Positions 2 to 4,205 of a stretch of 64,000 nucleotides of DNA are shown piece after piece (the first letter of the stretch is position 1; the number at the start of each line of letters is the position of its first letter). Source of the DNA: Alphaproteobacteria bacterium. Its GTDB lineage: Bacteria; Pseudomonadota; Alphaproteobacteria; UBA6615. The notes beneath the pieces were generated by a model. It saw only the letters and a program-made list of their open reading frames with translations. It was not told the DNA's origin and did not search any database. The position numbers and the translations under genes were made by a program. Location of the stretch: the NCBI GenBank assembly GCA_021774575.1, contig JAJFIX010000006.1, positions 1-64,000 of the forward strand, written 5' to 3'.

Positions 2-427
2 GGCGCGCTGGCCAGCCTGGTTGAACGCAAGAGCCGCTACCTGGTGATGACCAAGTTACAAGACAGAAATGCCACCACACTCACCGACAAGGCCATCCGG
101 TCTCTCCAGCATATCCCAAAGAGTTGGCGCCAGACCCTGACACTGGATAACGGCAGAGAGTTCGCCAAGTTCAAAGACATCGAAAGACGCACCGGCATCG
201 CCGTCTTCTTCGCCGATCCCTATGCCCCGTGGCAGCGCGGAAAAAACGAAAACACCAACGAGCTCATCCGGCAATACCTGCCAAAGGGGTGCGATATGCG
301 CAAAGTAACCGACAAGGATCTTGCCAACATCGCCAAAACAATCAATCATCGACCAAGAAACTGCCTCGGCTATCAGACACCTCACGAGGTCCGGCGAAGT
401 GCCCTAACTGGTGCGATTGGAACGTGA
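2..427 (+). CDS. IS30-family transposase, C-terminal part (5' end outside window)
   Basis: The frame is open from the left window edge and ends at 425-427. It encodes the C-terminal catalytic part of an IS30-type DDE transposase. Visible family marks are a start resembling GALASLVERKSRYLV, the second-aspartate block LTLDNGREF, and the YAPWQRGKNENTNELIRQYLP block carrying the final catalytic glutamate, followed by RKC/RNCLGYQTPHEV near the C-terminus. The last ten residues after TPHEV (RRSALTGAIGT) were not recognised as a usual IS30 tail, so the 3' end may be altered. It directly abuts a 100-bp remnant of another gene at 441-540, as if the element had inserted into or recombined with a copy of that gene. 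Whether the element is intact cannot be judged because its left part is missing. No terminal inverted repeat could be assigned. Confidence 0.85.
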   Translation, partial: GALASLVERKSRYLVMTKLQDRNATTLTDKAIRSLQHIPKSWRQTLTLDNGREFAKFKDIERRTGIAVFFADPYAPWQRGKNENTNELIRQYLPKGCDMRKVTDKDLANIAKTINHRPRNCLGYQTPHEVRRSALTGAIGT

Positions 428-440
428 GTTCACCTGTGCC

Positions 441-540
441 GCGAAACGCCACCTCCGCCGCCCGCTCCTGGGCGATGAAGGTGGCGGTGGCCTGGTTGGC
501 CTGGGCGTTGGTGGTGCGGAATTTTTGCTGGAGCAGGGGG
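441..540 (-). pseudogene. Remnant of a second copy of the phage-virion-like gene
   Basis: These 100 bases match 3655-3754 with only three substitutions that I can count (positions 465, 528 and 535). Read on the minus strand, they encode about 33 residues equivalent to roughly residues 107-140 of the 761-aa protein encoded at 1789-4074 (the LQQKFRTTNAQ...AERAAEVAFR stretch). Similarity stops abruptly on both sides and no start or stop frames it. It is therefore a gene fragment left by duplication, deletion or IS activity, sitting immediately after the IS30 transposase stop codon. Confidence 0.8.
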
Positions 541-655
541 GGTTGAGCGGAACCAGCGGTGATAGTAACGGGGCGTGTTAGCTAATTATCACCCCACCAT
601 ATCCTCAAGAGAGGCGGTGAGGCATAATTAAGTAAGGTGCCCCCGTTTCTTCCGG

Positions 656-1075
656 CTACTCAAAATATGTCTTTGCATAATTATGCAAAACATCAAAGGC
701 GCGCTCGGCCTCAGCCTGGGACACCAAAAAATTCACCCGAAAATCTGGCGACAAGGAACCATATGTCTCGGCCAGGGATTGGCGCAATTCGGCAATCTGG
801 TCTCGATCATAGCTCGTGGTAAGCTCGCTGTAGCTATCAATTTCACTGAAATTGATATAGGTCACTGGGCCAATGCCACGGTCGGATGAGGCCTCGTAGT
901 CGCGTGCCGCGAGCACACGCCGAGAAACCTCCAGTCCCCATTCATTATACGCCTCGGCAAATTGCGGCATTTCAACATCGACATACCGAACCGCCCATGG
1001 GGCGAAAGAGTAGAGAAGCCCCGCCGCCGCTCCTATACCAAATTTCCAATACCCAAACTGTGTAGCCTTACTCAT
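656..1075 (-). CDS. Hypothetical single-pass membrane protein (139 aa)
   Basis: I do not recognise this protein. Residues about 8-30 form a hydrophobic, glycine/alanine-rich segment (FGIGAAAGLLYSFAPWAV), consistent with one N-terminal membrane anchor or an uncleaved signal. The remaining 110 residues are soluble, acidic and apparently helical, with no cysteine pattern or catalytic motif that I can identify. It is the last gene of a three-gene minus-strand series (1789-4074, 1136-1582, 656-1075), 60 bases after its upstream neighbour. Base composition is lower in GC than the housekeeping genes further right. Together with the IS30 remnant next to it, this suggests acquired DNA. Confidence 0.6.
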   Translation of the reverse strand: MSKATQFGYWKFGIGAAAGLLYSFAPWAVRYVDVEMPQFAEAYNEWGLEVSRRVLAARDYEASSDRGIGPVTYINFSEIDSYSELTTSYDRDQIAELRQSLAETYGSLSPDFRVNFLVSQAEAERAFDVLHNYAKTYFE

Positions 1076-1135
1076 GGGTTTTCCATCCAGCGTATTACCA
1101 TTTGGTTTAACTTCATTTAGCGCTTTTCGGGCCCA

Positions 1136-1582
1136 TTACGGCACCGGGTCGCCCGTTATTTCCTGTGCGAAAACGGTGATCGTTGCCAGGGCTGTTTTAA
1201 CCGTCATCGCCGGTTCATTGTCTGCCGGTAGATAGGCAAGCCTATTCGTCGAAACGGCACGCCGCCAGAGCTCGGCCCGTTCACGCGAAGACCATGCAGT
1301 CAAGATTTCCTCGCCCCCTGGAATTTCCAGCCCCCCCTCAACCGTAGCCATAACGGCAAAGGCACGGCTGAGGACCAGTTTCTCCGCCCGGTCACGTTCG
1401 ATACAGTGAATTTCCCGGGAAATACTCTCGACCACACAGGCCCGCAAAACGTCGTAGGAGAGGTTATAGGTGGAGCTACCGAATATCATTCCAATGACAA
1501 TACCAATAGTAACCAGCGAGTATCTCGACTGAAGCCACCAGCTCCACCATGACTCCTTCTTGCGCCGCCCGCCGTTCTGCAA
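1136..1582 (-). CDS. Hypothetical single-pass membrane protein (148 aa)
   Basis: Unrecognised. The N-terminus is strongly basic with paired tryptophans (RRKKESWWSWW). One transmembrane helix follows at about residues 21-38 (YSLVTIGIVIGMIFG), so an N-in/C-out topology is likely. The rest (about 110 residues) would lie outside the cytoplasmic membrane and contains two cysteines (in RACVVES and IHCIERD), which could form a disulfide. No known domain was identified. It sits between the 761-aa gene upstream on the same strand (206-base gap) and the 139-aa membrane protein downstream. Two small anchored proteins after a large variable protein form a pattern discussed in the findings. Confidence 0.6.
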   Translation of the reverse strand: MQNGGRRKKESWWSWWLQSRYSLVTIGIVIGMIFGSSTYNLSYDVLRACVVESISREIHCIERDRAEKLVLSRAFAVMATVEGGLEIPGGEEILTAWSSRERAELWRRAVSTNRLAYLPADNEPAMTVKTALATITVFAQEITGDPVP

Positions 1583-1788
1583 AATAAGTACCCCCTCACA
1601 AGGTCACCACTTTTGGTTGGCCAAAAATAGACGCATGTCATCTGGTTGATACCGTATTCGACCGACGTTCCACAATACTCAATAGGAGCTCATCTGCCAG
1701 ATAAACAACCATACCATGTTTGCAACGCCAGTAAACCCGGACAAAAAAAACCATAAATATCCGACCCTATTCAGCCAACGACTATGGT

Positions 1789-4074
1789 TCACTCACCGTC
1801 TGAGAATTCCTGGATAATCGGCTCAAACGCCCTGTTTCCCGGGTTTAGGGAACCTGGCTTCAAGCCTAGGTCCTCCAGTGTCGGCAGATTTTCGTCGGCG
1901 GAAATGAAAACACTACCGCCATCCGACGATCGAAAAAGACGAAACCCATGTTCCAGCAGCTCTTTTGCAAATTGGCCCATATCAAAATTATCAAAATCGA
2001 TGTCAAGGGCGTCGTCGACCATATCGCCAACGTCGATTGTTTTCGTGCTTTGGCTTGTTGAAGCTCCCCCGGAAGAGGAAAATGGATCGGTATCTAGTCG
2101 ATTATTTTTTACGACCCGTATTTCCCCATGATTGAGGTCGATTTCAAAGCGCCTGCCGAATTCGTCAAACCCCGCCCGGCCACCTGTGGCAAAAATTATC
2201 TCGCCGTCAAAGGTAAAGGAAACTCCAGCTCTAATGTCAAAAAGCCAGGTGGTTTTAGCAGAAAGAGCGATCCCGAATTCTTCGGTACCTGTTTGGGTAT
2301 CGAAGTTCGGATTGGTCGTATGAAAAACCACAATACCGGCTGCCCCCATCTCAAGGGTATCCTCGTCATCATCCAGCCCTGCCCGGTCAACCAATTTTCT
2401 TGTCGCGCCGGTCCCAAAAACCGATACAGAGACCTCCTTTCCGAGCTCAACCAAAGCTCCGGATTCATCGAATTTTTCAATCTGTGCAGCGATAATTCTT
2501 TGGGTAATTCGGTCTTCGCCCGTCGTTTCTTCTGTGATCGTATTTTCTTCAGAGATCTGCGATAGGGCATCGAAAAATTTATCGAGCTCTGTCCGGTTTG
2601 GTGGATTAACTTGAGCCAACACCTCCGCGCCGGCACCATCGTCAATGAGAATTTCAGAACTGCCAATATCGGCCTGGGGCTGCCCGGCGAACTCTCCCAC
2701 GGGGTTTTCTTGGCGTTGCTGATCTACCAATATAAACCTCCCGATGTTTCCCCCCTGTGCACCAGCATCGAACCGACTGCCGAGCCCAATATCGGCTGCC
2801 CTAGGTCCCGGTCGCTCATTACCTTCACCGTCAAGAATGGTCGTGCCGCCGTGCTCGTCAAATTCCAACATCTCTTCGGGGCCGATAGGTGCCCTATTTG
2901 CCGGATCTACACCCCCGATTCCAAGCATATTTGTGACACCGCCCCCAGTCGCCTGTCCCGACTCGGCCGACCCACCGTCATTGCGCCCGGCGAAAATACC
3001 GATCGTCTCCGGGTCGCAGCGCCCGACGCACATGCCGACCTGGGCGGCGGTCAGCCGGCCCTCGATCTGGCTGGTGTGGAGCGCCTTGGCGAAATCATAT
3101 TCCAGGCTTGCATTGGTTATCTCCTGGGCGTCGGCGCGGCTGGCGAGGATTGCCCGGGCCCGGGCGGCGATGGCGGTGCGGTTCGGCTCGTCTAGGTGGA
3201 GGCCGGTAAAGACCGAGCTCATGTCGGCACCGACCCGTTCCAGTAGTTCTTTGGGTGCGGTGTCGAGCAACCCAAAGGCCGCGGCCCGGCGCACCGCCGA
3301 GATCCGGCTGTTGAGGGTCGTGTCGAAGTCTTGCGCCAGCAGCAGGCCCGAGGCGACGGCGGCGGAGAGCTCGCGGGTGATCTCGGTCTCGATCACCTCC
3401 AGACGGCCCGGCGTGTCGATCGCGTCCTGGGCCAGGTCGATCACCCGTTGGTTCGACTGGGCCCGTTGGAAGTTGACCGACTTGGACGCGTCGAGCACGG
3501 CAATCTTGGTGTCGAATTGGGCCAGCCGAGGGGCCGTTATGTCGTTATATACCGACCGGGCAGCGGGCGGCAGAGCCGAGCCAATCTCCTCGTGGGATTG
3601 GTTCAGACTGGCGATCACCGGCTCGCCGGGCAGGCCGAGGCCATCCGGGGTGGCGCGAAACGCCACCTCCGCCGCCCGTTCCTGGGCGATGAAGGTGGCG
3701 GTGGCCTGGTTGGCCTGGGCGTTGGTGGTGCGGAATTTTTGTTGGAGCTGGGGGTCGGCGGGGGATGCCGGCGGCACGGACACCGGTGCGGGTGGCGGCG
3801 GGGCCAAGACCGGGTCGAGGTTCGGGTCGGCGCCGGTGAGCAGGGTGGACTCGGCCATCGGGCGCGCTGGCGTGGGCCGGGGCGCAGGCGCTGCCGGCTG
3901 CAAGGGCCGGCCCGACTTGAACGCGGCAGCCAGGCTCTTTACCGCGCCGCCGAAGGCTTGCACCTGGGCCGCCTGCTCGGCGCCGAACTGGCCGGGGTTG
4001 GTCGCCAGTTGCTGGAACGGGATCTGGCCCTGGGCCGGTTTAACGCGGCGGCCGGGCACGGTGATACGAGCCAT
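1789..4074 (-). CDS. Large chimeric protein with a phage-virion-like N-terminus (761 aa)
   Basis: The first ~345 residues resemble an internal or tail-associated virion protein of alphaproteobacterial prophages. They start MARITVPGRRVKP, run through alanine-rich sequence and a Pro-rich linker (about 57-106), then long charged helices (about 110-340, e.g. RLEVIETEITRELSAAV, LDEPNRTAIAARARAIL). The remaining ~415 residues differ in character: Gly/Asp-rich, acidic, few Lys, predicted beta-rich in the 570-660 region (AGVSFTFDGEIIFATGG), with low-complexity stretches (SSSGGASTSQSTK). DNA encoding the C-terminal half (below about 3010) is visibly less GC-rich than the N-terminal half, supporting a fusion of two sources. 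There is no signal peptide. No other phage gene lies nearby. The family assignment of the N-terminal part is from memory of such proteins, and the C-terminal part is unrecognised. Confidence 0.6.
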   Translation of the reverse strand: MARITVPGRRVKPAQGQIPFQQLATNPGQFGAEQAAQVQAFGGAVKSLAAAFKSGRPLQPAAPAPRPTPARPMAESTLLTGADPNLDPVLAPPPPAPVSVPPASPADPQLQQKFRTTNAQANQATATFIAQERAAEVAFRATPDGLGLPGEPVIASLNQSHEEIGSALPPAARSVYNDITAPRLAQFDTKIAVLDASKSVNFQRAQSNQRVIDLAQDAIDTPGRLEVIETEITRELSAAVASGLLLAQDFDTTLNSRISAVRRAAAFGLLDTAPKELLERVGADMSSVFTGLHLDEPNRTAIAARARAILASRADAQEITNASLEYDFAKALHTSQIEGRLTAAQVGMCVGRCDPETIGIFAGRNDGGSAESGQATGGGVTNMLGIGGVDPANRAPIGPEEMLEFDEHGGTTILDGEGNERPGPRAADIGLGSRFDAGAQGGNIGRFILVDQQRQENPVGEFAGQPQADIGSSEILIDDGAGAEVLAQVNPPNRTELDKFFDALSQISEENTITEETTGEDRITQRIIAAQIEKFDESGALVELGKEVSVSVFGTGATRKLVDRAGLDDDEDTLEMGAAGIVVFHTTNPNFDTQTGTEEFGIALSAKTTWLFDIRAGVSFTFDGEIIFATGGRAGFDEFGRRFEIDLNHGEIRVVKNNRLDTDPFSSSGGASTSQSTKTIDVGDMVDDALDIDFDNFDMGQFAKELLEHGFRLFRSSDGGSVFISADENLPTLEDLGLKPGSLNPGNRAFEPIIQEFSDGE
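3655..3754. repeat. Direct repeat partner of 441-540 (about 97% identical, 100 bp)
   Basis: This segment lies inside the 761-aa gene and is the presumed source (or sister) of the fragment at 441-540. Both copies are in the same orientation, about 3.2 kb apart, so recombination between them would delete the three-gene cluster. The match starts at the GCGAAACGCC shared block and ends in a run of five G's. Confidence 0.85.
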
Positions 4075-4205
4075 GGGTAAGTCTTTTTGTTGCTGAAAGA
4101 AATATAGATTGTTGTTATTATAACATCTCTCTGTTTAGGTCAAGATGTTTCTGCAACGAACACTGGAGTTGGGTTGCGAATGGGGTTGCGGGCGATACCG
4201 CCCGG

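Follow-up and report, generated by a model that had tools for sequence, protein, structure and literature searches.

The DNA analysed here (the window) comprises bases 1-64000 of contig C42 (JAJFIX010000006.1) in a 3.5 Mb, 97%-complete alphaproteobacterial assembly of 46 contigs (GCA_021774575.1). Three open reading frames on the minus strand near its start, encoding proteins of 761, 148 and 139 amino acids (aa), were characterised as a candidate toxin effector and two candidate immunity proteins. A preliminary description of the locus, made from the sequence letters, had reported the same three frames, and their positions were recovered unchanged. The order of transcription is preT, preA (both named by eye), the 761-aa gene, the 148-aa gene and the 139-aa gene. 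These are followed by an orphan fragment of the effector N-terminus (575-432), lying between the small genes and a piece of an insertion sequence of the IS30 family, which had been overlooked; the IS30 remnant itself had been correctly placed at the flank. The features are as follows:

1789-4074, minus strand: 761-aa effector open reading frame, intact
2935-4074, minus strand: N-terminal module of the effector, residues 1-380, with 12 further copies in its own genome
1789-2934, minus strand: variable, acidic C-terminal module, residues 381-761; identity to the sister proteins is at background from residue ~370-380
4075-4130, minus strand: leader before the start codon, from an alignment of the five copies that keep the N-terminus
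1136-1582, minus strand: 148-aa protein, candidate immunity protein, with TTG start and AGGGGG ribosome site, basic N-terminus and one membrane segment
656-1075, minus strand: 139-aa protein, candidate second immunity protein, with weak N-terminal membrane anchor and acidic C-terminal part
432-575, minus strand: orphan fragment of the effector N-terminus, residues 96-143 (144 bases), disrupted by IS30 (protein search E 9e-15, 75% identity)
555-652, minus strand: imperfect ~90-base palindrome heading this orphan and two others (fold z -3.2 to -3.8 in three copies)
2-427, plus strand: 3' part of an IS30-family transposase, incomplete at the contig start and abutting the orphan at its end (rve PF00665, E 3e-7)

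The N-terminal module consists of a basic stretch of ~50 residues, a proline-rich linker and a helical domain (residues 106-364), with a junction motif, C..C...ARND, near residues 349-366 that is conserved just before the first junction. The leader, common to all copies that keep the N-terminus, includes the run ATAACAACA and CAACA..AGGACTTACCCCATG. The C-terminal half is acidic, as had been stated (pI 4.19 and 18.9% D+E, vs pI 5.58 in the N-terminal half). A drop in GC had also been reported, and the C-terminal half is indeed at 50.8% (GC at third codon positions, GC3, 0.491), but the true outlier is the GC-rich N-terminal half, at 69.6% (GC3 0.847) against 55.3% for the window; the two small genes have 56.3% and 51.3%.

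Scans of the window proteins against Pfam, PHROGs, NCBIfam and PADLOC returned nothing usable. The 761-aa and 139-aa proteins had no match in Pfam, PHROGs or NCBIfam, and the 148-aa protein had matches at chance level in the same three collections; one of its NCBIfam matches, 'Erm(C)', was discarded at 18.9 bits against a cut-off of 530. Both small proteins had been described as single-pass membrane proteins. The 148-aa protein bears this out convincingly (residues 23-41 have hydropathy 1.56, and the C-terminal part is predicted to lie outside), whereas for the 139-aa protein the case is weak (hydropathy 1.12 at residues 11-29).

The shared N-terminus and its exchanged payloads

The 761-aa protein, described earlier as a chimera, is not a solitary one. 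A protein search of its own genome placed the N-terminal module at 12 further sites with 56-87% aa identity, confined to the first ~385 residues and counting each frameshifted copy as two matches. The copies lie on contigs C4, C5 (three loci), C15, C23, C28, C40 and C8, in addition to the fragment in the window. Many are found at contig ends, where a repeat that interrupts assembly would be expected to lie. C40 and C5 have an overlap of exactly 141 bases and so probably hold a single gene, with its start in C40 and its end in C5. Window bases 1-141 are likewise identical to the final 141 bases of C28, on which a repeat array takes the place of the upstream half; the locus therefore continues there into repeat arrays.

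The point at which the copies part company is sharp. The DNA of the window gene and of the C4 copy is 82-91% identical up to residue 369 and unrelated beyond it, and the two C5 copies show 97-99% identity for most of residues 181-300, falling to background near residue 335. The C4, first C5 and C15 copies have an extra middle domain in common and diverge later; between the first C5 copy and C15, a DNA identity of 91-97% gives way to a protein identity of ~40%. GC3 steps down at the junction in every copy (from 0.72-0.85 to 0.48-0.63), and the window, like each copy whose sequence runs on, has small partner genes. A conserved N-terminus with interchangeable, unrelated C-termini, as in polymorphic toxins, was thus found, and so were orphan cassettes retaining a piece of the conserved part, a second mark of such toxins. 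The N-terminus is under purifying selection (dN/dS 0.20-0.42), which shows the shared part to be selected sequence and not decay alone.

The orphans are placed after the partner gene of the preceding unit. Three copies (on C4, the second on C5, and window 432-575) start at codon ~97-100 and not at codon 1, and the window orphan has 96% DNA identity over 105 bases to positions 3650-3754 of the window. Two further observations concern how the copies are related to one another. The N-terminal copies at C5:3806-3814 and C23:12273-12282 have a common frameshift at about residue 208, by which they derive from each other or from one broken parent. A queF-like fragment lies before the effector start at both C5:7232-7672 and C28:358-1040 (85% identical over 690 bases), which suggests that a piece of chromosomal flank may have been copied along with the effector start.

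The payload of the C4 copy is a class-3 lipase with the motif GHSLGGG (Lipase_3, E 3.9e-5, which passes the curated cut-off); the next gene encodes a 402-aa protein containing one membrane segment. The second C5 copy carries a HEAFH motif and looks metallopeptidase-like by eye, with no family match for the payload; the gene after it encodes a 363-aa protein whose membrane segment is N-terminal. The first C5 copy and C15 have related payloads, each with an opposite-strand gene for a 101-109-aa protein of about three membrane segments; payload and partner genes are convergent, their stop codons ~2 bases apart. Pore-forming colicins and their immunity proteins are arranged in this way, the immunity gene being convergent and coding for a small multi-pass protein. 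By this analogy the C5/C15-type payload might be a pore-former, which stays a lead because the model of that payload is uninformative (predicted local distance difference test, pLDDT, 42). On C15, a payload remnant lies on the far side of the three-segment gene (L015:5277-5452 vs L015:6245-6420, 68% identical), which suggests an older, decayed duplicate of the same payload.

A further protein on C4, here called protein E, is tied to the family through the middle domain (at the start of C23). It ends in a payload of ~150 residues and is followed by a 131-aa protein without membrane segment. Over 133 residues, this payload and the end of a protein of OR847722 have 34% identity (database E 5e-9); the full IMG/VR version of the latter is a 507-aa LXG toxin (LXG PF04740 E 9e-9, weak TNT match E 0.015). 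The 125-aa protein encoded after the Listeria LXG toxin, with a 19-base overlap, is related to the 131-aa partner (z 5.4; 1/1000 shuffles as good). In IMG/VR, 11 Listeria-type phage contigs carry the LXG toxin with its TNT-like end and the 125-aa gene at their edge (L050:2891-4773; OR847722), which makes the toxin/immunity pair phage-borne. An Ochrobactrum plasmid has a related 103-aa frame between transposases (z 17), and C16 starts with another partner fragment (z 25). Since the protein E pair recurs in the Listeria LXG locus, at least one payload/partner pair of the family is, to judge by sequence relationship, a toxin/immunity-type pair that an established polymorphic toxin class uses as well. 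Apart from the Listeria pair and the one Ochrobactrum plasmid frame, no relatives of protein E, its C-terminus, the three-segment partners or the lipase C-terminus were found in the collections or samples tried, and sequence searches of the PDB with three payloads returned nothing.

The type of partner tracks the type of payload, being cytosolic for the TNT-like payload, membrane-anchored for the lipase and HEAFH payloads and three-segmented for the first C5 copy and C15. As regards the two small genes of the window, one prophage toxin with two immunity proteins is known for Bxa (PMC11699363).

Possible relation to phage ejection proteins

The N-terminus had been called phage-virion-like. No sequence family bears this out, and what stands comes from the predicted fold and from the sister genes. 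The model of the N-terminus is all-helical, with pLDDT 65-91 across most of residues 106-350; outside the N-terminal helices the two structure models made are of low confidence. In a Foldseek search against 350,542 PDB chains, T7 gp15 took ranks 1-2 (probability 0.80 and 0.75), and all other PDB chains listed had a probability of at most 0.28. Structural alignment joined model residues 101-372 to gp15 residues 77-377 with Z 6.5-7.2 over 211-230 residues. In BFVD a podovirus transglycosylase protein came first (E 2.4e-5); those confident matches that have a name are tailed-phage proteins.

The phage link gains independent support from the neighbours of the family. Protein E has a gp16-like segment: its residues 46-252 match D-type internal virion proteins of Autographiviridae (E 1.6e-15, from a small set) and the PHROG internal virion protein (E 8.5e-4). 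The C23 copy comes after a T7-type tail fibre, contig C34 holds a T7-like prophage block (portal E 7e-160), and adjoining the C4 cluster is a fragment of the C34 gene that comes after the tail gene. Flanking genes of gp14 and gp16 type, as at the late-operon position of gp15, were not found at the window gene, the context of which is chromosomal; copies outside the window do lie near the tail fibre (C23) or the fragment of the post-tail gene (C4).

On C34:1-14104, one strand carries terminase genes, portal, scaffold, capsid, a 935-aa tail protein and an acetyltransferase-like gene, and the other strand a 916-aa primase; the internal virion genes that would be expected to follow are absent from the assembly. 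At C23:4272-11220, a 1564-aa tail-fibre-like protein and two concanavalin/LamG-like proteins (by eye) precede the copy of the effector N-terminus. Upstream, the other strand encodes three small secreted proteins that are paralogous to one another.

Proposed mechanism, alternatives and known systems

The three window genes are best read as an intact member of a polymorphic toxin/immunity family present in multiple copies, with a gp15-like carrier and particle-borne delivery, a reading to which we give a probability of roughly 0.62. Its parts differ in strength. That the family is a polymorphic toxin/immunity system is very probable, given the lipase sister and the TNT-like toxin/immunity pair shared with Listeria LXG. 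An effector with partners, built from a captured phage structural gene, had been proposed for the locus, and at the level of the family this finds good support in the conserved N-terminus, the swapped C-termini, the partners, the orphans and the known toxin/immunity pair. The window member itself is probably also a toxin/immunity set, with a C-terminus presumed toxic and partners presumed to confer immunity. Delivery by a particle is a tentative proposal, standing a little short of an even chance.

In the proposed mechanism, the N-terminus (~370 residues with the gp15-like helical domain) would be the trafficking part, by which the protein would be loaded, together with the ejection core, into a podophage-like particle from a resident prophage or a domesticated relative. 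The particle would then fire the protein into the envelope of a recipient cell, where the variable C-terminus would be the toxic payload, acting most likely in the periplasm or at the membrane. T7 gp14, gp15 and gp16 are ejected into the periplasm, where they form a DNA tunnel (PMC8954989); payload partners facing that compartment are in keeping with this. The 148- and 139-aa proteins would be membrane-anchored, periplasm-facing immunity proteins protecting the producer and its kin. Recombination at the junction would bring in new payload/immunity pairs, with orphan cassettes behind the active gene as their store.

Several observations weigh against this reading. The gp15 match has a Foldseek E of only 0.2, and its Z scores fall in the range where helical bundles match by chance. 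No sequence homology of the N-terminus to ejection proteins was found by BLASTP against five Autographiviridae internal proteins C or by tblastn against INPHARED, nor any similarity by hhalign against sets of internal virion proteins B, C and D with five members each, so that the claimed likeness to gp15 is one of fold. The window gene adjoins preA/preT and not phage genes, and would have to act in trans. Strands are present in the model of its C-terminal module at pLDDT <50, by which the earlier label 'beta-rich' is not established. The window C-terminus has no match in Pfam, in the phages of INPHARED or in 384 other genomes of the class; the finding that the preliminary description had named as refuting its reading, the same three genes inside an ordinary complete prophage, thus did not arise there. 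Relatives of the 148- and 139-aa proteins were not found either; that they resemble no other partner of the family is what payload-specific partners would lead one to expect. Frameshifts or truncations affect some copies (the second C5 copy and C23), and the window set is the single member that is both intact and fully assembled. The family is known from one genome, in a fragmented assembly whose contig joins rest on 141-base overlaps.

The leading alternative, which we consider unlikely, keeps the toxin/immunity family and takes the N-terminus as a signal for non-phage export (two-partner or type I secretion, outer-membrane vesicles or cell lysis), the likeness to gp15 being chance. The missing sequence homology to phage proteins and the ordinary chromosomal sites of the copies would suit it, and Z <8 is common for helical models according to the structural aligner's own note. 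Set against it are the clear distance of gp15 from all other solved folds, the podovirus proteins among the best BFVD matches, the gp16-like segment of protein E and the copy after a T7-type tail fibre. The sheath of a type VI secretion system (T6SS) is also missing: VipB (PF05943) was not found in the 97%-complete genome, and was found in the E. coli control. The suggestion of a contact-dependent system is not supported, in view of the same result and of the absence of contact-dependent inhibition (CDI) and Rhs domains; Pfam and NCBIfam scans of the family proteins contained no CdiA, Rhs or VENN-type domain. Systems of these two kinds (CdiA-CT/CdiI and Rhs; PMC3150448) have a sharp conserved/variable junction, as here, and their orphan modules retain a piece of the conserved part, often without start signals, several being disrupted by insertion sequences (PMC3150448). 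The orphans of the present family match them in the retained piece and in the disruption, whereas its junction motif is C..C...ARND and its sequences are of neither CdiA, Rhs nor VENN type.

Less probable still is that the proteins are phage effectors of the polyvalent type, ejected with the DNA, whose C-terminal enzymes aid the phage or exclude rivals and whose small partners serve superinfection exclusion or self-protection of the lysogen. Polyvalent proteins (PMC5512222) likewise combine a virion-associated region with effector enzymes meant to enter the recipient with DNA. The gp15-like N-terminus, the gp16-like segment and the several copies beside prophage genes would agree with this, and lipase and TNT-like domains would suit an attack on a host. 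Polyvalent proteins have many domains and lie near virion genes, however, whereas each protein here has one recognisable payload and a cognate partner, orphans occur, and only some copies lie by phage genes. The many chromosomal copies with differing payloads, and the orphans without phage neighbours, fit a bacterial arsenal better.

A decayed prophage edge, also entertained in the preliminary description, in which ejection-protein genes spread by repeats are decaying and the C-terminal differences are phage mosaicism without toxin function, has truncated and frameshifted copies, the IS30 piece and the repeat arrays at the edges in its favour, and is improbable in view of the selected N-terminus, the intact 761-aa frame, the dispersal over several chromosomal sites, the toxin domains of lipase and LXG type, accompanied by a matching gene downstream, and the conservation of partners with payload type.

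Returning to a toxin/immunity family with a phage-derived carrier, the kind of system is already known, namely polymorphic toxins including phage-borne ones, and the N-terminal family was found in no other genome searched. The closest parallels are the MuF toxins (PMC5576092) and Bxa of Bacteroidales (PMC11699363), both of which combine, as here, a virion-type N-terminus with interchangeable toxin domains and adjoining small immunity gene(s). Bxa has two immunity genes, as the window has two small genes, and phage delivery has likewise been proposed for both. MuF polymorphic toxins of temperate phages are described as exclusive to phages and prophages, mostly of Firmicutes (PMC5576092). MuF is a head/packaging domain, whereas the predicted fold here resembles a podophage ejection tunnel protein; MuF (PF04233) had no Pfam match up to E 1 in the window protein or the sister N-termini. 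MuF genes lie in the packaging module, the window copy by preA/preT, with the packaging genes on C34. In contrast to MuF, the copies here are dispersed on the chromosome and their partners are mostly membrane proteins.

With T7 gp15 and gp16 (internal virion proteins C and D; PMC8954989), the family has in common the gp15-like helical fold predicted for the N-terminus and the protein E segment homologous to D. It differs in its toxin-like C-termini, in having most copies outside phage clusters and in an N-terminus without detectable sequence homology. In LXG toxins of Firmicutes, the toxin end and the next gene are homologous to the protein E C-terminus and its 131-aa partner, while their N-terminal trafficking part is unrelated to the family N-terminus; no family member has an LXG domain, which was found in the Listeria relative of protein E. 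Other phage-borne polymorphic toxins include ESX-secreted prophage cassettes (PMC10654092). The literature searched, as far as it was read, describes no toxin family with an ejection-tunnel N-terminus, and a review of ejection proteins (PMC8954989) never uses the word toxin.

Relatives of the N-terminus were not found in INPHARED, PLSDB, IMG/VR, GTDB genome contigs, 59 relatives or the 384 other class genomes; the genome collections were searched by short peptide patterns, which would miss distant relatives. Co-occurrence of the genes elsewhere was likewise not seen in these searches, neither the N-terminus nor the window C-terminus being found outside the source genome.

The most specific form of the proposal adds a gp15-type trafficking domain on a dispersed Gram-negative arsenal with orphans, podophage-like loading, ejection into the envelope of competitors and anchored immunity for kin; it is possible, at somewhat less than an even chance. 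Polymorphic toxins take their names from the carrier part, so a gp15-like ejection domain, if true, would be a new carrier class. Short-tailed phages, which fire their internal proteins into the cell envelope, would then have been turned into toxin-delivery devices in Gram-negatives, as MuF proteins apparently have in Firmicutes and Bacteroidales, and ejection proteins would be a place to look for new toxins. The family in any case yields a set of candidate payload/immunity pairs, among them the window payload and two small proteins without known fold.

Repeat motif and further genomic features

The palindrome heading the orphans begins with GAAGAAACGGGG.CA..TTACTTA (window copy 629-652). This motif has 18 copies in the genome, 16/18 of them beside effector cassettes or the IS30 piece. 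It is array-forming and lies at window 629-652, C4:4774-4965, C5:3366-3411, C16:170-274, C28:11002-11151 and C45:307663-307711. The last of these sites has no cassette, by which the motif is ruled out as cassette-specific and looks like an element of the repetitive extragenic palindrome (REP/REPIN) or miniature inverted-repeat transposable element (MITE) type.

Elsewhere, at C8:7506-11917, two frames of ~780-790 aa overlap; they are rich in repeats, have an autotransporter-like end and are probably one large autotransporter gene with a frameshift.

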